Assembly: GCA_018700895.1 (NCBI GenBank)
Contig: JABIUV010000003.1
Coordinates: 1-45,708 of the forward strand
Source: Bacteroidota bacterium
GTDB taxonomy: Bacteria > Bacteroidota > Bacteroidia > NS11-12g > UBA9320
Length of the DNA: 45,708 bases
Direction: 5' to 3'
Shown: positions 8,089 to 16,960 of the stretch, piece by piece
How positions within the stretch are numbered: the first letter of the stretch is position 1
Layout of the letters: each line of letters opens with the position of its first letter
The notes under the pieces: generated by a model
What the model saw: the letters and a program-made list of their open reading frames with translations, nothing else
Databases searched by the model: none
What the model was told of the DNA's origin: nothing
Program-made: the position numbers and the translations under genes

Positions 8089-9172
8089 ATGACATCAGAT
8101 CAGTTTAACGACATAAAAGGCCGCACAGCAAAACTGGCGGACTATCTTTGACTTGGCTAAGAATTTGGCTCTCATAGAAGACGAGGAGCAGCAAACCCAC
8201 GACCCTAGTTTTTGGGATGACCCCAAAAAAGCAGAACTTCATCTCAAAAACATTAAGAAAAAGAAAATTTGGACGGATGCTTGGGCAGCGGTAAATGCTG
8301 GTGTGGAGGAGATAGAAGTACTCCTAGAGTTCAAAGAAATGGGGGAGGATGTAGACGAGGAAATAGAGACTAAGTACCAAGAGACCCTCCAAAAACTCGA
8401 AGACCTTGAGTTTAAAAATATGCTAAGTGGTGAGGAAGACCAACTAGATGCCATACTTGAAATAAATGCAGGTGCCGGTGGTACGGAAAGTAATGACTGG
8501 GCTAGTATGCTGAGCCGCATGTACATTATGTGGGCACAGAATAATGGGTTCAAAGCGGAAGTGATAGAGCAAGTAGATGGCGACGTAGCGGGTATAAAAT
8601 CCATCAGTATACAGATTAGTGGCAATTTCGCTTTCGGATATTTGAAGGGAGATAATGGTGTGCACCGACTGGTGCGTATAAGCCCATTTGATAGCAGCAA
8701 TAGACGTCATACCTCTTTTGCTTCAGCATACATTTACCCAGTAGTAGATGATAGTATAGAGATAGAGCTCAACTGGGGTGAGATAGATATGCAGACCTCA
8801 CGTAGTGGTGGTGCTGGGGGCCAAAATGTAAACAAAGTAGAAACCAAGGTGCAACTTACACACAAGCCTACGGGCATTATGGTAGTATGCTCCCAAGCCC
8901 GTTCGCAGCTTGCCAATAAGGAGGAAGCCATGAAAATGCTAAAATCACAATTGTATGATATAGAACTGCGTAAGCAAACCGATGCTCGTGCCGAGATAGA
9001 AAACGGTAAGATGAAAATAGAATGGGGAAGCCAAATACGTAACTACGTGATGCACCCTTACAAACTGGTAAAAGACGTACGTACCGGTGAGGAGACGAGC
9101 AATGTACAAGCCGTAATGGACGGAAATTTAGAGGCTTTTCATAAGGCGTATTTGTTAGGTCAGAAGAAGTAG
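8089..9172 (+). CDS. prfB: Peptide chain release factor 2, read through a programmed +1 frameshift
   Basis: RF2 terminates translation at UGA and UAA. Translation starts at ATG 8089 and reaches an in-frame TGA at 8149-8151 after 20 codons. The site is CTT TGA C, the canonical RF2 autoregulatory slip: ribosomes shift +1 on CTT/TTT and continue at GAC (8150-8152). This gives a 360-residue protein, close to other RF2 proteins. In full-length numbering the UGA-specificity tripeptide SPF is at about 198-200 and the catalytic GGQ is at 243-245 ([14 protein letters not shown]). A naive gene call would begin at the TTG at 8153 and lose the N-terminal helix. A weak Shine-Dalgarno-like GGCGG (8136-8140) lies five bases upstream of the slip codon. 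Confidence 0.97.
8136..8152 (+). promoter_or_regulatory. RF2 programmed +1 frameshift site
   Basis: The elements are GGCGG (8136-8140), a five-base spacer, slip codon CTT (8146-8148), TGA stop (8149-8151) and the context base C (8152). In the well-known E. coli site the stimulator is AGGGGG with three bases before CTT. Here it is weaker and two bases further away. Confidence 0.9.
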
Positions 9173-9194
9173 GGGGTTGATATCTGAGTTATGA

Positions 9195-10202
9195 TTAGCG
9201 AAGTATCTTCATCAGTTGCTCCAACTTAGGACTTAAAATTATTTCTATTCTACGGTTCTGTGCATACGCCTCTTTGGTTTCTTCGATATTTACAGGGAGG
9301 TATTTACTTCGTCCGCTAGGTATAATTTTGAGTGGGCTGATGTTGCCTTCGGTGGTAAGGTATCTTACCACCGAAGTAGCCCTCAGTACGCTGAGATCCC
9401 AGTTATCCTTTATTGTAGATGAACGCATAGCCTGATTATCCGTATGTCCTTCTACCATAATGTCGAAATCTGTGAGACCTCTCAAGCTTTCTGCTACTTC
9501 TAGAAGAGCTATTTTACCTTTCTTGTCAATATCAATTTTACCAGATTCGAATAATAGGCTATTGTCTAATGAAACATATATTTTCCCGTCTTTCTCTACT
9601 ACGGTAATACCGCTATTCTCATAACCTTTGAGTGATTCGGTAAGCTTGTTTTTTAGGTTTGCAACAGCACGTTCTTGCATCTTTAAACGATATTCAAGCT
9701 CATTCACTCGGTGTTCTCGCTCCTTTAGGTCTGCCGCCAACAAGTCTAATTTTTCTTTTAGTTGTTTGGCTTTTGTGTCTTGTGCCAGTAACTCTGTTTC
9801 ATTTGCAAATAATTGACCTTCCAACTTACTCTTTAGAGTATCCAGCTCTTGTAGTCGGTATGCTAATTCGTTATTTGTATTTTCATTTTTTATGACTAGC
9901 TCTTTGTAATTCTGGTCTAAAATAGCATAGCTTGCTTTTGATTTTTTATACTGATTTTTCAGTTCTGCATAGGCTTGCTCCGCCTTTTCGTACTCGCTCT
10001 CTAGTGTGTTGTATTTAGCTGTATTCAGAGCCAGTTGATTATCACAATACTCTTTTAATGTTTGGAGCTCACTGTAATCTGCATTAAGTAAATCATATTT
10101 GACCTGTAATTCTTCAAATTTCTTGGAAGGAACACAAGCTGAAATTAGGAATAGAAAAGAGACAATGCTCAGCTCTTTATGTTTTTGCATATTTTGATAC
10201 AT
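9195..10202 (-). CDS. OmpA-type peptidoglycan-binding lipoprotein with long coiled coil
   Basis: A 335-residue envelope protein. The N-terminus is a lipoprotein signal with lipobox LISAC, so Cys23 (or Cys19 if translation starts at the second ATG, 10190) should be lipidated. Residues about 30-200 are a long heptad-rich coiled coil full of Glu, Lys, Leu and Ala. The C-terminal OmpA domain (about 215-330) has MVEGHTDNQ at 249-257, LSVLRATSVVRYL from 270, and AQNRRIEIIL near 315-323, all typical of the peptidoglycan-binding fold. It probably tethers the outer membrane to the cell wall, the coiled coil acting as a spacer. A one-mismatch promoter box (TAAAATTG, 10220-10213) favours the outer start. 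It is convergent with prfB, with 22 bases between stops. Confidence 0.9.
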   Translation of the reverse strand: MYQNMQKHKELSIVSFLFLISACVPSKKFEELQVKYDLLNADYSELQTLKEYCDNQLALNTAKYNTLESEYEKAEQAYAELKNQYKKSKASYAILDQNYKELVIKNENTNNELAYRLQELDTLKSKLEGQLFANETELLAQDTKAKQLKEKLDLLAADLKEREHRVNELEYRLKMQERAVANLKNKLTESLKGYENSGITVVEKDGKIYVSLDNSLLFESGKIDIDKKGKIALLEVAESLRGLTDFDIMVEGHTDNQAMRSSTIKDNWDLSVLRATSVVRYLTTEGNISPLKIIPSGRSKYLPVNIEETKEAYAQNRRIEIILSPKLEQLMKILR

Positions 10203-10361
10203 AAAATGATTGCAATTTTAATCAGTATTGTACAGTATGTTGGTCAAAAAAAAGTAACATATAAACAATCGAATGACGTAAAATACAGAAATATGGACTT
10301 TAGAGCTGCTTTGGCTTACTCTTTGTAGTATTTTTATAGTAAAATTTAATTACATAATCAT

Positions 10362-10760
10362 ATGAAAAATTCAAAAACTTTTTTATTTACAATTACCTTT
10401 TTGACCAATTCTATTGCCAGTTTTGCTGCACAACCGTATAGTACAAAGAAGTATCCTAAACTGCTCAAATCACAGTCCCCGACTATTGTAGTAAAAGACC
10501 TTGAGCAGGAATCGACAAAAACTAAAAGCAATCAATCCGAACTGAAAACAAAAGTTGCCATTGATCAAAATGAACGCTCTTCTGTGGTAACCAAGCAAAT
10601 CGAGCCAAAGTTGAATCACGCTAATAAGCCTTTTGTAAACACTAATCCTATTATTTCCAAAGCTGCTTATACACCTTCAGCTAAAGAGCTAAAAAAAATC
10701 AAGCGTAAACAAGACAGACTTAAAAAAAATAGAAAAACAAAGTGTAAATGGGGGCAGTAA
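10362..10760 (+). CDS. N-terminal part of a frameshifted TM2-domain protein
   Basis: 132 codons from ATG to TAA. It begins with a signal-like segment (MKNSKTFLFTITFLTNSIAS, then FAA) followed by a polar, low-complexity Lys/Ser/Thr/Gln-rich linker and a very basic KKIKRKQDRLKKNRK tail. On its own it resembles no family. Directly after it, in the +1 frame and without a start codon of its own, comes an intact TM2 domain (to 10980). Bacteroidota TM2 proteins commonly have just this layout: signal, basic linker, a GGSKS-like junction, TM2. Removing one A from the A8 run at 10722-10729 (or at 10691-10698) would join both parts into one frame of about 206 codons. Confidence 0.6.
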   Translation: MKNSKTFLFTITFLTNSIASFAAQPYSTKKYPKLLKSQSPTIVVKDLEQESTKTKSNQSELKTKVAIDQNERSSVVTKQIEPKLNHANKPFVNTNPIISKAAYTPSAKELKKIKRKQDRLKKNRKTKCKWGQ

Positions 10761-10980
10761 AAGTGCCATAGTTGCGGTTCTTTTATGTTTCTTTTTAGGC
10801 GTAATTGGGGTTCATCGATTTTATCTTGGGTATACGTTTATAGGTATTATACAGGTGTTAACACTAAGTTTTTTTGGTATCTGGGCATTGATTGACCTAA
10901 TCCTTCTCCTTTTTGGTGAGTTACAACCTAAGAATGGGGCATTTGAAAAAGACTTTTTCGATGAGGTGAATGAGCTATAA
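10743..10980 (+). pseudogene. TM2 domain in the +1 frame, C-terminal part of the split gene
   Basis: Reading from 10743, the frame gives VNGGSKSAIVAVLLCFFLGV, then IGVHRFYLGYTFIGIIQVLT and a second membrane helix SFFGIWALIDLILLLFGE. This is the diagnostic TM2 architecture: two helices around a G-xHRFYLG motif and an (I/L)WxLIDLI motif. It then ends ...DFFDEVNEL and TAA at 10978-10980. No ATG, GTG or TTG in this frame could start it sensibly, so expression would need a frameshift or transcript slippage in the upstream A8 run. The encoded helices show no decay, which argues for recent mutation, an assembly error, or functional slippage. Confidence 0.7.
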
Positions 10981-10987
10981 CAGCTTG

Positions 10988-11581
10988 TTATTTCGTTTCA
11001 CGTTGGATTTTACTTAAACCCCTTATTAGATTCAATATTAAACTCAAGATGCCTCGCTTAGCGGGGCATTTTTTTGTCAATCGCTTTAGGGTGTGTCTAC
11101 CTCTGTTTTTTACCCCATTGCTTCCTGTAGGTATAATACTTTCTATAGCATCTATCAATTCAGGAATGAGTTCAGGGTATTTTACCGCGATTTGTTCACA
11201 TACAGTCATACTAAATGCCTTGATTGCGATGGCCTCCTTTGGGTCTAGCATAAAGGCTATGCAAGTATCATAAAGCACACCTGCGATATCGTCGGGTATG
11301 GGGCACGTTTGGTATATGCGTACAATGTTTCGGCGTATGGCACCGTGTTTAGATTTGTCACCTAACTGCTGTACGAGGGTTGTGTGATAAGGAGCAATAA
11401 GATGAGGCTTTTGCTTGCCAACATGGCCCAATGCCCAACTGGTAGTTTGAGAAACACGACTAGTCCCATTTACAAAATACTCTATCAACTCCGCAAATCG
11501 CTCAGGACTATCCCCTATAAAATCTATGATTTCATTAATCGTTTGTTTATTGTTGGGTTTGGTGATGAGGTGCTTTAGCAT
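10988..11581 (-). CDS. Helical-repeat (HEAT-like) hypothetical protein
   Basis: A 197-residue soluble protein made of paired amphipathic helices, for example SRVSQTTSWALGHVGKQKP and a GAIRRNIVRIYQTCPIPDD segment. These resemble HEAT or armadillo-type repeats used for protein binding. I do not recognise a specific family. The C-terminal 28 residues (from about KKCPAKRG) are encoded across a strong plus-strand terminator hairpin at 11049-11075, which suggests they arose by extension of the frame into the intergenic region. It is convergent with the TM2 gene (seven bases between stops). Cytoplasmic location is likely and function unknown. Confidence 0.7.
   Translation of the reverse strand: MLKHLITKPNNKQTINEIIDFIGDSPERFAELIEYFVNGTSRVSQTTSWALGHVGKQKPHLIAPYHTTLVQQLGDKSKHGAIRRNIVRIYQTCPIPDDIAGVLYDTCIAFMLDPKEAIAIKAFSMTVCEQIAVKYPELIPELIDAIESIIPTGSNGVKNRGRHTLKRLTKKCPAKRGILSLILNLIRGLSKIQRETK
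11049..11075 (+). terminator. Rho-independent terminator for the TM2 locus, inside the opposing gene
   Basis: ATGCCTCGC (11049-11057) pairs with GCGGGGCAT (11061-11069), nine pairs including one G-T, around a TTA loop. T7 follows. It sits about 70 bases after the TM2 stop and within the 3' coding part of the minus-strand gene. Confidence 0.8.
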
Positions 11582-11628
11582 TTACTGAATGATGGAATAA
11601 CAGAATAATAGATACGATAGCAAAATTA

Positions 11629-11670
11629 GAACGCTGATGACACTGATTTAGCTGATAACCGCTGATTTTT
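11629..11670. repeat. Short GCTGAT-phased repeat
   Basis: GCTGAT or ACTGAT occurs at 11633, 11642, 11651 and 11661, a period of 9-10 bases, with T- or A-rich fillers, and ends in a T5 run. It is in the spacer between ddl and the helical-repeat gene. Similar degenerate NCGCTGATnn ladders occur in intergenic regions of diverse bacterial genomes. No function is inferred. Confidence 0.45.
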
Positions 11671-11704
11671 CACTACTTCCAATCATTCTGAACTCAATCA
11701 ATCA

Positions 11705-12787
11705 TTAAACACTCGTCTGCATTTTATCCTCTTCTTCACCTCGCTCTAAGGCTAAATCGATGAGTCGCGATATCAAATCGGAGTAGGAGATGCCGCCTGC
11801 TTCCCAAAGTTTAGGATACATACTGATGTCTGTAAATCCAGGTAGGGTATTCACCTCATTTACAATTATTTCATTGCTTTCCGTGACAAATACATCTACT
11901 CTAGCCATTCCTTCACAACAAAGTGCCTTATATGTTTTTATGGCAATGTGTTGTATTTCACTTTGCAAATTTGCGTCTAATTTGGCAGGGATTACCGTCA
12001 CAGATCCATTAGCATCAGTATACTTAGCTGCGTATGAATAAAATGTATGTTGCTCACCTACAGTGACTACTTCACCTAAAGGCGATGCTTCTATTTCTTG
12101 ATTGCCCAATACCGCACATTCTATCTCACGACCAACTATATTCTGTTCTATCAGCACCTTTCGGTCATACTTAAATGCATTGTCAATGGCTGTTTCAAAC
12201 TCTCGCTTGGTTGTCACTTTGCTTATACCTACCGATGAGCCCAAATTGGGCGGCTTGATATACATCGGCACTCCGAGTGAGGCTAAGGCTTTTTCATAAG
12301 TAATTAGATTGCATTCGCTTTTGAGGTAGGATAAAAATCTACTATTTGCTATACCTGCCTCGTTTAATACGCGTTTGGCTACTTCCTTATCTATGCATAA
12401 GGACGAACCTATTACGCCGGGTCCTACAAACGGGATTCCAATGGATTTGAGCAAGCCTTGTAATGTACCGTCTTCTCCACCCGTACCGTGCACTATCGGA
12501 AATATGGCGTCTATTTTTCCGAGTGATACGTTTGTATACGTATTGATGATTGGTTCGGTATTCCCCGGTTTCAGTGCTAAAGAATTAGGTGTTATTTTTA
12601 CGATATTTTCTTTGGCCAGTTCTTCCTCTGTTTTGCTATACCACACCCCATTTTTGCCTATGGCGATAAGTAGTAGATTGTATTTATTCCTATCTATTGC
12701 TTTGGCGATATTACGAGCAGAACGTATAGATACTTCGTGCTCTGTAGATTTCCCACCATATACTATTGCGATGTTCTTTTTCTGCAT
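11705..12787 (-). CDS. ddl: D-alanine--D-alanine ligase
   Basis: A 360-residue ATP-grasp enzyme that joins two D-Ala for the peptidoglycan stem peptide in the cytoplasm. The N-terminal substrate loop GGKSTEHEVS is at 11-20. The central region has HGTGGEDGTLQGLL and FVGPGVIGSSLCIDK, typical of Ddl. The ATP-grasp core has MYIKPPNLGSSVGISK, and the metal-binding C-terminal motif is NEVNTLPGFTDISMYPKL near 308-325. Length is normal. It is transcribed alone or after the amidohydrolase gene, whose stop lies 54 bases upstream. A TTAATTTG sequence, one mismatch from the promoter consensus, lies in that gap. Confidence 0.97.
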   Translation of the reverse strand: MQKKNIAIVYGGKSTEHEVSIRSARNIAKAIDRNKYNLLLIAIGKNGVWYSKTEEELAKENIVKITPNSLALKPGNTEPIINTYTNVSLGKIDAIFPIVHGTGGEDGTLQGLLKSIGIPFVGPGVIGSSLCIDKEVAKRVLNEAGIANSRFLSYLKSECNLITYEKALASLGVPMYIKPPNLGSSVGISKVTTKREFETAIDNAFKYDRKVLIEQNIVGREIECAVLGNQEIEASPLGEVVTVGEQHTFYSYAAKYTDANGSVTVIPAKLDANLQSEIQHIAIKTYKALCCEGMARVDVFVTESNEIIVNEVNTLPGFTDISMYPKLWEAGGISYSDLISRLIDLALERGEEEDKMQTSV

Positions 12788-14038: not shown

Positions 14039-15139
14039 TTATGCACTACGTTGTTGGCGTTTGCTTTCTTTTTCAATGATATTGGCTACTGAGCGGAATT
14101 CTCTACGAATAATGGGCCATCGTTTTGGGTACCTATCAAAGAGTTCTACGATTTTTCTGGCGTGTTTATTAAGTGCATCTGTAATACTGGCATTACTCAC
14201 CGGTGGTGTGCAATTGGCTCCTATGTTTTTGCCTATGACGTTTAAGCTCTTCTCTTTAGTAATATTTGCAGCTTCTTCATACCTATCTAGTAGCACATAT
14301 GTTTTTGTGTATCGTCCTAGGTTTAGACCCTCGGTTTCAGTACTATAGGTTTTAGCTTTACTGGCTTTGAGGTCGGTTAGGTGGTTTGACGTAAGTACTA
14401 TTTCGGTATCGCCACTTAGTAAAGCCATGTTTACAGCTATTTCTATGTGTTGCTCAAGATTAGCCTTTAGATGATAAAACGAGTTGGAGTAATCCTTCAG
14501 TTCATCTGAAAATGCCCTGCTCATTCTTATTTCTATTTTGTATTTGGCTTGTAATTCGTTTAGCACTAGTTCGGTAAATTGGCTTATGGCCAGTTGGAAG
14601 TTTTCCGTCTGTTCGGCAAGTTGCTTCTTTGTTTTTATTATTTCATCATTAGCCAAATTATTTCCCTTAGCTAGTCGCTCCATAATTTCCTTATCCGTAG
14701 TTTGAATTTGGGTAAGCGATTCCACAAAACCTCTTATGGTTCGTTCAAAAAGGATTTTCTCGTTAGCTAGGAGATACTTCTCTTTATGAAGTCCAAAGGG
14801 TTTAATCTTCACAAAAAGATAGAGTTGACCAGAAGACGCTTTTAAGTTTTTTATGAATAGAATGTCTCTATCAAGTTCGGCTTCCAATTTAGACTGCCCT
14901 AACTTAGGCGTTGCATTAAATGGTGTCTCATCTAGGGCATACCATCCTGTAGTATTGTTCTGCAAAAAGGTGTGCAACGAGTGAGGAACGGCTTCTTCAT
15001 AAATTCCGTTTTGAGTTTGAATATGGGTGGTGTCATCGGGAAGTATAGCGATACATATTACCTCCGAGGCTTGTACCACAGATTGTGACACAAATTCGGC
15101 TACAAGTTGCTGTAAAGGTATGTTGCTGCTGAGTAACAA
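14039..15139 (-). CDS. Conserved hypothetical protein with a basic C-terminal helical domain
   Basis: A 366-residue soluble protein that I cannot assign to a named family. Residues 1 to about 130 look like an alpha/beta sensor-type fold (SEVICIAILPDDTTH; GQLYLFVKIKPFG), perhaps GAF-like. The middle (about 135-200) is helical with Glu/Lys heptads. The last 45 residues (ITDALNKHARKIVELFDRYP, then KRWPIIRREFRSVANIIEK) are a basic helical module resembling a DNA- or protein-binding tail. The apparent start is TTG, since no in-frame ATG lies near the N-terminus. A perfect TATATTTG box is placed seven bases upstream. A cytoplasmic regulatory role is a guess. Confidence 0.7.
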   Translation of the reverse strand: MLLSSNIPLQQLVAEFVSQSVVQASEVICIAILPDDTTHIQTQNGIYEEAVPHSLHTFLQNNTTGWYALDETPFNATPKLGQSKLEAELDRDILFIKNLKASSGQLYLFVKIKPFGLHKEKYLLANEKILFERTIRGFVESLTQIQTTDKEIMERLAKGNNLANDEIIKTKKQLAEQTENFQLAISQFTELVLNELQAKYKIEIRMSRAFSDELKDYSNSFYHLKANLEQHIEIAVNMALLSGDTEIVLTSNHLTDLKASKAKTYSTETEGLNLGRYTKTYVLLDRYEEAANITKEKSLNVIGKNIGANCTPPVSNASITDALNKHARKIVELFDRYPKRWPIIRREFRSVANIIEKESKRQQRSA

Positions 15140-15146
15140 TGCATTG

Positions 15147-15154
15147 CAAATATA
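15147..15154 (-). promoter_or_regulatory. -7 box for the 366-residue hypothetical gene
   Basis: TATATTTG (read 15154 to 15147) is a perfect TAnnTTTG match, seven bases from the TTG start at 15139. Confidence 0.55.
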
Positions 15155-15160
15155 GCTGTA

Positions 15161-15249
15161 TTAAGCTTTTTGTTAAGTAAAATTAAGAAATTAACTTGAT
15201 TTCACTTAAGGTGTTTTCAGCTAAATTAAGTGCTTAATTTTTAACTTAA
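15161..15249. promoter_or_regulatory. Cluster of TTAAG/CTTAA sites in a divergent spacer
   Basis: Seven TTAAG or CTTAA pentamers occur in 89 bases (15161, 15173, 15183, 15205, 15226, 15233, 15245). They include the palindromes CTTAAG and TTAAGTGCTTAA, and a CACTTAA / TTAAGTG inverted pair. They lie between the divergent genes starting at 15139 and 15337. This could be a regulator-binding array or only AT-rich drift. Confidence 0.35.
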
Positions 15250-15336
15250 TATGTTGTTTATCAGTATGATTGGATAATAATATTGCCCAATCATTAGGAT
15301 ATAAGTAAAGCATTTTTTTTTTAAATAATTAAGTAA

Positions 15337-15759
15337 ATGAGAGCACAAATCACAGTAGAACAGTATTTTTTGTATGAGGCTATAGCCACTATCAATGCGG
15401 TTATCGATGCATTAATCGAAGGAGAAAATTTTTATGGAAACAGATCATTAGCTCAACAATGGGAGAGGCTGAAACAAGCTTTTCACTATTTTATGATAGA
15501 TTTAGACGTAGACGATTTTACGGATATTAAACAACGAGAAGAGCGTCCATCAAGCTACCCGTCATCAGACAGAAAGCCGAACAGAAAGAAACCTTCCAAA
15601 CTCAAAAAAATGAAAGATAAAATCATCAAATCAGTCAAAAGGGGATTGTTGAATACAATTGTAACGATAGAGGATTTTTTGAAGCCTCCAATACCTGCTA
15701 ACGGCGATAAGCATGATGAGTTTGAAAACAGGATTAGAAGTTCTTCTTATACCGAATGA
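15337..15759 (+). CDS. Hypothetical protein, helical with basic linker
   Basis: A 140-residue protein of unknown family. Residues 1-60 are amphipathic and helical (QYFLYEAIATINAVIDALIE; WERLKQAFHYFMIDL). A Ser/Pro/Arg-rich polar linker with RKPNRKKPSKLKKMKDK follows at about 70-100, and then a short helix VKRGLLNTIVTIEDFL. There is no signal peptide or true membrane span. An ATG start and a long open frame with ordinary codon use support a real gene. It is preceded by the TTAAG/CTTAA cluster, and no terminator is visible after it. No function can be proposed. Confidence 0.6.
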   Translation: MRAQITVEQYFLYEAIATINAVIDALIEGENFYGNRSLAQQWERLKQAFHYFMIDLDVDDFTDIKQREERPSSYPSSDRKPNRKKPSKLKKMKDKIIKSVKRGLLNTIVTIEDFLKPPIPANGDKHDEFENRIRSSSYTE

Positions 15760-16066
15760 ATGATAGAATGTCGTATAAATATCTTGGAATATTTTCTAAG
15801 CTTACAAGGCAGAAAAAATTAGCATAGTTCTAGTTATGGTCATTTTTTCTAACGATGTAAGATTCTGAAAGAAACGAGATATATGCGTCATTCTCTTGTT
15901 CAATCGTCTAAGTTAATAAAATTCAAACTTAGGTTGGTATTAGGTACGAATCGGTATGTTTTTTTTTGAACTTCCTTGCAGCACCTCAGCATTAGAATAG
16001 TCGCTATTCATAGGAGAGGGGATGTGTTGTTTAAAAATGATAAGTCCGTCGCAGGATAAACACAGT
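15760..16066. other. Gene-free spacer of about 300 bases
   Basis: No credible coding region, RNA gene or terminator was found. One 7-bp inverted repeat, CTAAGTT / AACTTAG near 15908-15932 with an 11-base gap, and a T9 run near 15960 are the only visible structures. Confidence 0.5.
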
Positions 16067-16960
16067 TTACTGGTTTTTATGTTTTTTATAGAGTGCTCGT
16101 GCAATACCGTCAGATAGCCCAACCTTAGGGATGTAGATTTTTTGAGTGTCTAGATAACCAGCAATATTCAGGAAGATTTGAGCGGCAGGAATTATCACGT
16201 CTGCTCTATCTGGGTTAAGTACAAATTTGGCGATACGCTCGTCATAATCTACGGCTTCAAGCTCTTTTTTGAAGGACGCTAGAGCCATAATATCTATAAA
16301 ATAATCTCCTTGTTGCTTTCTCAGCATTTTAAGAAGTTTATTGATATTTCCGCCAGAACCCAGAATAGGGATTTGCTTGTGGGTAATACCTAGTTCGCCA
16401 AACCACAGTTGTATGTCGTCCCACAGTTGTGTGTTAACGTTGTTGTGTAGTAGTCTTATGGTTCCTATTTTGAATGAGCGTGCTGCGGTCTTTTGTCCAT
16501 CCTTTAAGTAGGTCAATTCCGTACTTCCCCCACCTACATCTACAAACACAATTTCATCAAAACGCGGAATATAACCAGGTAGGTTCTCGAATGATATAGT
16601 GTCCGCCTCTTGATCACCAGATACTATTTCTAAGTCTAAGTCAGCATAGTGCTTTATCTCTTCAATAATATACTTAGCATTACTTGCCTCACGCATCGCA
16701 CTTGTGGCGTATGCTCTATAATCCAGTACTTGATGCACATTCATAAGATGCTTAAACGAACGCATAGTGCGAACCAATTGGTCGGTTTTCTCTTCGGTGA
16801 TACGGCCTTTTATGAACGCATCTTCTCCCAATCGGATAGGAACCCGTACAAGTGATAACTTTCTGAAAACGGGTCCATTCTCTGTTTCAAAAACATTGGT
16901 AAACAATAACCGGACTGCATTGGACCCTACGTCTATGGATGCGAATTTTAATAATTTCAA
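16067..16960 (-). CDS. Ppx/GppA-family exopolyphosphatase-like phosphatase
   Basis: An actin/hexokinase-fold phosphatase of about 297 residues acting on polyphosphate or pppGpp. Motifs are the phosphate loop ASIDVGSNAVRLL at the start, ATSAMREASN, the nucleotide-binding FVDVGGGSTEL, and LGSGGNINKLLKM. The frame stays open 29 codons further upstream to an ATG at 17047. That stretch has no family similarity and runs towards the terminator hairpin. A TATATTCG promoter box (16978-16971) lies just before the TTG at 16958-16960, so I choose that TTG. It lacks the C-terminal HD-like domain of long Ppx proteins. Whether it is Ppx or GppA cannot be decided. Confidence 0.88.
   Translation of the reverse strand: MKLLKFASIDVGSNAVRLLFTNVFETENGPVFRKLSLVRVPIRLGEDAFIKGRITEEKTDQLVRTMRSFKHLMNVHQVLDYRAYATSAMREASNAKYIIEEIKHYADLDLEIVSGDQEADTISFENLPGYIPRFDEIVFVDVGGGSTELTYLKDGQKTAARSFKIGTIRLLHNNVNTQLWDDIQLWFGELGITHKQIPILGSGGNINKLLKMLRKQQGDYFIDIMALASFKKELEAVDYDERIAKFVLNPDRADVIIPAAQIFLNIAGYLDTQKIYIPKVGLSDGIARALYKKHKNQ

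Follow-up and report, generated by a model that had tools for sequence, protein, structure and literature searches.

A TM2-domain gene split over two reading frames in a Bacteroidota genome is very probably an ordinary gene broken by a one-base difference

Results

In a single Bacteroidota assembly, a TM2-domain gene is divided between two reading frames close to a pair of eight-adenine (A8) runs, and comparison with related genomes suggests that it is very probably a single-frame gene broken by a non-programmed one-base difference, whether an error or a recent mutation. Intact, the gene would encode a signal segment, a basic linker and a TM2 domain in one ordinary frame; in this one assembly that frame would be broken at the second A8 run by a difference of one base, and, read as assembled, the gene would give a 132-aa product without a membrane domain. 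We infer that the lesion is an indel within the A run and that it is recent.

The window analysed is the whole of contig C39 (45,708 bases), taken from a genome (G000) of 2.42 Mb (2.416 Mb in 59 contigs) with an estimated completeness of 100%. The initial annotation had described a frame 0 ending at 10760, a TM2 domain in a separate +1 frame without a usable start, and the two A8 runs nearby; the exact positions of both runs were confirmed, and the ORF coordinates (Table 1) and a profile match bear out this arrangement of frames. The TM2 domain in the +1 frame is full and intact, and its product belongs to PF05154 by a score well above the curated cut-off (67.2 bits against 27.9, E 1.5e-18). 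The earliest ATG, GTG or TTG in the TM2 frame is a GTG at 10855, and because this first candidate sits inside the domain, no usable start lies ahead of it. A profile search of the genome found no second TM2 gene able to substitute for this one, and no Rfam element was found across 9000-12000. The gene is flanked by an OmpA-family gene and by a conserved gene that we call ‘HEAT’, which is our own label and nothing more. Beyond the OmpA gene lies prfB, which carries the classic CTT TGA C site for +1 frameshifting, ordinary for bacteria.

Table 1. Features of the TM2 locus and its flanks (positions in the window)
Feature	Position	Strand	Basis or remark
prfB (release factor 2)	8089-9172	+	TIGR00020; CTT TGA C at 8146-8152
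OmpA-family gene (PF00691), divergent flank, syntenic marker	9195-10202	-	Pfam match and synteny
Frame-0 ORF, encoding a signal-like N-terminal segment (FAAQPY) and a basic linker rich in lysine	10362-10760	+	132 aa; TAA at 10758-10760
First A8 run	10691-10698	+	Frame 0 reads through; relatives match frame 0 beyond the run
+1 frame, open	10693-10980	+	95 aa; stop at 10980; no start codon ahead of TM2
Second A8 run	10722-10729	+	Match to relatives switches from frame 0 to the +1 frame; putative site of the one-base lesion
TM2 domain (PF05154)	10756-10902	+	Profile match
‘HEAT’, flanking conserved gene, syntenic marker	10988-11581	-	No Pfam family; one sub-threshold NCBIfam match; synteny

The frame split of the TM2 gene goes beyond chance. 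A frameshift-tolerant coding model, trained on the genome's own long ORFs and placing frame changes at a penalty, put a +1 shift at about 10719 unprompted when the penalty was 10; at a penalty of 12 it placed no frame change in the TM2 gene, presumably because the gene's parts are short. Local coding scores upstream of the A runs were positive in frame 0 and strongly negative in the other frames, and downstream of the runs they were positive in the +1 frame and negative in frame 0. Over the 150 bases (50 codons) past the second A8 run, the third frame has eight stops and the TM2 frame has none.

A profile search of the other 18 genomes in the genus found a TM2 match above the family cut-off in five. 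An orthologue of the split gene is present in G003, G007, G008 and G011, and the TM2 proteins of G010 are different ones that lack this N-terminal part. In all four the orthologue is a single unbroken frame, 184 to 197 aa long when counted from the first ATG, and its longest A run is of seven, with no run of eight or more in any of them. The initial annotation had called for this comparison and had named relatives with truly separate frames as the case against a broken gene; every orthologue instead reads as one frame without an A8 run. Over residues 1-122 the frame-0 ORF shares 32-34% identity with the N-terminal part of the four orthologues, and the TM2 domain scores 67 bits in the split gene as compared with 45-53 bits in theirs. 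The neighbourhood is shared as well: an OmpA-family gene stands beside the orthologue in all four genomes, ‘HEAT’ and ddl flank its opposite side in three of them (G003, G007 and G008, with G011 the exception), and prfB was seen beyond OmpA in G008 and G011. The order of signal segment, linker and TM2 domain is common to the intact orthologues and to other genera of the order. The same frame split was found in none of the four orthologues among the 18 other genomes, so that single-frame orthologues stand beside a break confined to one genome, as expected of a recent frameshift lesion.

The alignments also indicate where the frame was lost. All four orthologues align to frame 0 through residue 121-122, which is beyond the first A8 run and into the second, and then to the TM2 frame. 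This places the probable loss of frame at the second A8 run, and the first run, past which the relatives continue in frame 0, was rejected as the site of the lesion. The crossing point is fixed to within a few codons rather than to a single base, since the orthologues are only about one-third identical in their N-terminal part. The proposal that one A lost from either run restores a single frame holds in so far as the +1 frame is already open at the first run, such that a shift at either run would join the frames, but homology points to the second run.

We judged absence of the TM2 gene in the interval adjoining the OmpA gene, which served as an anchor; these calls leave out G016, where the contig ends inside OmpA, and G010 and G018, where the OmpA hits are partial. 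OmpA and ddl enclose no copy of the gene in G009, G006, G004, G001, G012 and G017 (G006 also keeps ‘HEAT’), nor do OmpA and ‘HEAT’ in G002, for a total of seven genomes that includes two of the three closest by dnaX (G009 and G006). In a dnaX tree of 13 genomes, in which five of ten inner branches are well supported, G000 clusters with G009, G006 and G016 (100/99 support for the four), and no match to the TM2 gene was found in those three; elsewhere in the tree G017, without the gene, is sister to G008, which has it. The tree leaves out G012, in which no long frame was found before the dnaX run, and G002, G005, G014, G015 and G018, in which dnaX gave no hit or a partial one. Because the position of the gene is shared among genomes, this pattern speaks for an old gene that may have been lost several times, and repeated loss in the lineage makes decay of the G000 copy plausible. 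With seven genomes lacking it, the gene appears dispensable or in the course of being lost, as would be expected where a recent lesion is found.

The same coding model flagged dnaX (L049, 7045-8726, minus strand, contig C8), in which gamma ends just past an A10 run and tau goes on in another frame. An A10 or A11 run is present at 15 of the 16 dnaX loci of the genus that have a tau part, G000 included. A script confirmed the frame change at 13 loci, while at L069 and L077 the run was only seen and L068 is cut by a contig end; at L069 (G012) the run is present and the upstream open-frame test failed. As the dnaX run is kept across the genus and the TM2 run is found in no relative, a programmed site is conserved in these genomes and the TM2 break is not.

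Long runs are rare in the genes of G000. In a 665-kb sample of the genome with 469 ORFs of 150 aa or longer, A8 was observed 27 times against 45.2 expected from 200 synonymous shuffles (sd 5.8), and A9 or longer six times against 25.2 (sd 3.8), with none of the 200 shuffles as low in either case. T8 occurred 13 times as compared with 25.4 expected, and T9 or longer once as compared with 16.4; A5 and A6 were commoner than in the shuffles, and A7 was about as frequent as expected. This rarity is compatible with selection against slippage from length eight up, and equally compatible with selection against replication slippage. Avoidance of this kind would allow slippage at the TM2 gene, but it is not evidence that slippage occurs there. 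Among the results described in a study of many genomes is selection against runs from about nine (PMC1088944).

Across 1.065 Mb of G000 (44% of 2.416 Mb) and 755 ORFs of at least 150 aa, a scan for homopolymer-linked breaks gave 113 frame transitions; both flanking segments reached 40 aa or more in 84 of them, and in 11 the new frame lacked a start codon. Judged by eye, three of these 11 are breaks within one gene, namely TM2, dnaX and murB, and this count is a lower bound because breaks with a chance start codon in the new frame go uncounted. Five others (L138, L143, L149, L152 and L154) resemble, on inspection only, neighbouring genes whose start was missed by the model. Two more, at L145 (about 14978-16378, contig C12), are presumably what is left of a decayed type I restriction-modification locus, with ends resembling HsdS and HsdR, and one, at L055 (about 14697-14823, contig C14), is a 41-aa piece that we take to be similar to the end of Tex. 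The L055 piece lies next to an ORF unrelated to it and to a gene for a DEAD-box helicase; these names, like those at L145, come from inspection.

MurB is required for cell-wall synthesis. The only murB copy in G000 is split over two frames (G000:C40:9181-10157, minus strand; loci L116, L134 and L135), its parts covering profile positions 1-224 and 224-289, and murB was hit in 16 other genomes, whole in 15 of them and partial in G003. Because the gene is essential, its split is more likely an assembly error than a fact of the cell, which in turn raises the likelihood of error at TM2; the murB of G000 is probably mis-assembled. No long homopolymer adjoins the murB split, so it would be a different kind of error from that at TM2. 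The G000 assembly is not error-ridden at A runs: ORFs of at least 100 aa in 665 kb contain 39 runs of eight or more A's, of which 32 leave the frame intact, and the remaining seven comprise four within 23 nt of a natural stop, one in dnaX and the two in the TM2 gene. Recent mutation or a homopolymer error, which the initial annotation had named as the simpler option, is the explanation we favour, given that the relatives are single-frame without A8 and that murB is also split. We put the chance that the TM2 split is a residual sequencing or assembly error at about even, and rate a genuine mutation of very recent date, in a gene being lost from the lineage, at somewhat under even.

Discussion

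The possibility was raised at the outset that transcript slippage may express the TM2 gene. Functional slippage at one or both A8 runs would yield some transcripts in a single frame, and hence two forms of the protein, one short and soluble, the other anchored in the membrane. Both runs are well placed for this, the frames being joined by a shift at either; runs of A8 or longer are avoided in G000 genes, as expected if they are slip-prone; dnaX of the genus relies on a frame change at A10; and the interrupted tssM1 gene of Citrobacter rodentium is described as rescued by an A11 run (PMC4256274). A programmed site would be expected to keep its run and its break in homologues, however, and the A8 run and the split occur in none of the four orthologues, as compared with the run at 15 of 16 dnaX loci. 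Eight A's also fall short of the nine to 11 of documented sites, and of the length of about nine or more A or T expected for programmed slippage, though avoidance in G000 begins at eight. One A added at the second run leads to an immediate TAG, and the TM2 frame needs either one A fewer or two more. In the accounts given in PMC4256274 and PMC1088944, slippage at A runs mainly adds bases, so the TM2 product would stem from a minor transcript class. The gene is, moreover, dispensable in the lineage. We regard functional slippage as very unlikely.

Two further readings would keep the locus functional as assembled. Programmed ribosomal frameshifting could act at the A run, or at the G5 run before the stop, with the aid of a 3′ stem-loop. 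An RNA stem-loop is predicted at about 10742-10800, just past the second A8 run (-19.8 kcal/mol, z -2.87), and a genuine +1 site, CTT TGA C, lies nearby in prfB. However, a stem-loop placed 3′ of an A run promotes shifts to -1, and we rejected such a shift on the grounds of direction, as the TM2 domain needs the +1 frame and the -1 frame stops at once. Inspection of 10722-10760 found no +1 motif of the prfB type (CTT TGA C, or a slow codon or stop after a slip-prone codon), three of 162 control windows fold as unusually as the stem-loop, which is probably due to chance, and the split is kept in none of the four orthologues, such that we assign ribosomal frameshifting a next to negligible probability. 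The locus could otherwise hold two separate genes, one for a small secreted basic protein and one for a TM2 protein with a start of its own. Relatives do have TM2 proteins that lack a signal segment (for example, L009 and L014), but here the TM2 frame lacks a start codon ahead of the domain and both parts form one protein in all four orthologues, making two genes highly improbable.

Even for a single-frame gene broken by a one-base difference, in a lineage that makes dnaX tau through a frame change at A10 the polymerase might be slip-prone enough that the A8-interrupted gene still yields some anchored protein. We consider this very unlikely; if true, a disappearing gene would be partly kept alive by slippage, and the length of the run would set the ratio of soluble to anchored protein. 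Alone, the TM2 break matters little, and the comparison with dnaX is more useful, as conservation of the run tells a programmed site such as the dnaX A10 from a chance break at a homopolymer. The break is also a warning that annotation of this species may overlook the TM2 gene or list it as a pair of hypothetical fragments, and the draft genome should be flagged for its probably mis-assembled murB.

The split gene can be set beside several known systems. The singleton frameshifted genes of GeneTack, as presented in PMC3711429, are like it in that the break occurs in one genome, is backed by homology and Pfam, and has unbroken homologues; in that presentation they show no essential difference from the TM2 gene, and error and mutation are likewise unseparated. 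Two-ORF dnaX genes with ten A's are already among those described there (PMC3711429), and such dnaX genes (PMC3711429, PMC5009743) share with the TM2 gene a frame change beside a long A run, here in the same genome, but differ in having a longer run, conserved across the genus, and the opposite direction of shift. The tssM1 gene of C. rodentium, as reported in PMC4256274, is similarly an interrupted gene with an A run shortly ahead of the stop, but its run has 11 A's and its frameshifting, at about 20%, was established by experiment, whereas the TM2 gene has eight A's. Finally, the signal-linker-TM2 proteins of Bacteroidota have the same domain order as the G000 gene, in which that order is split over two frames.
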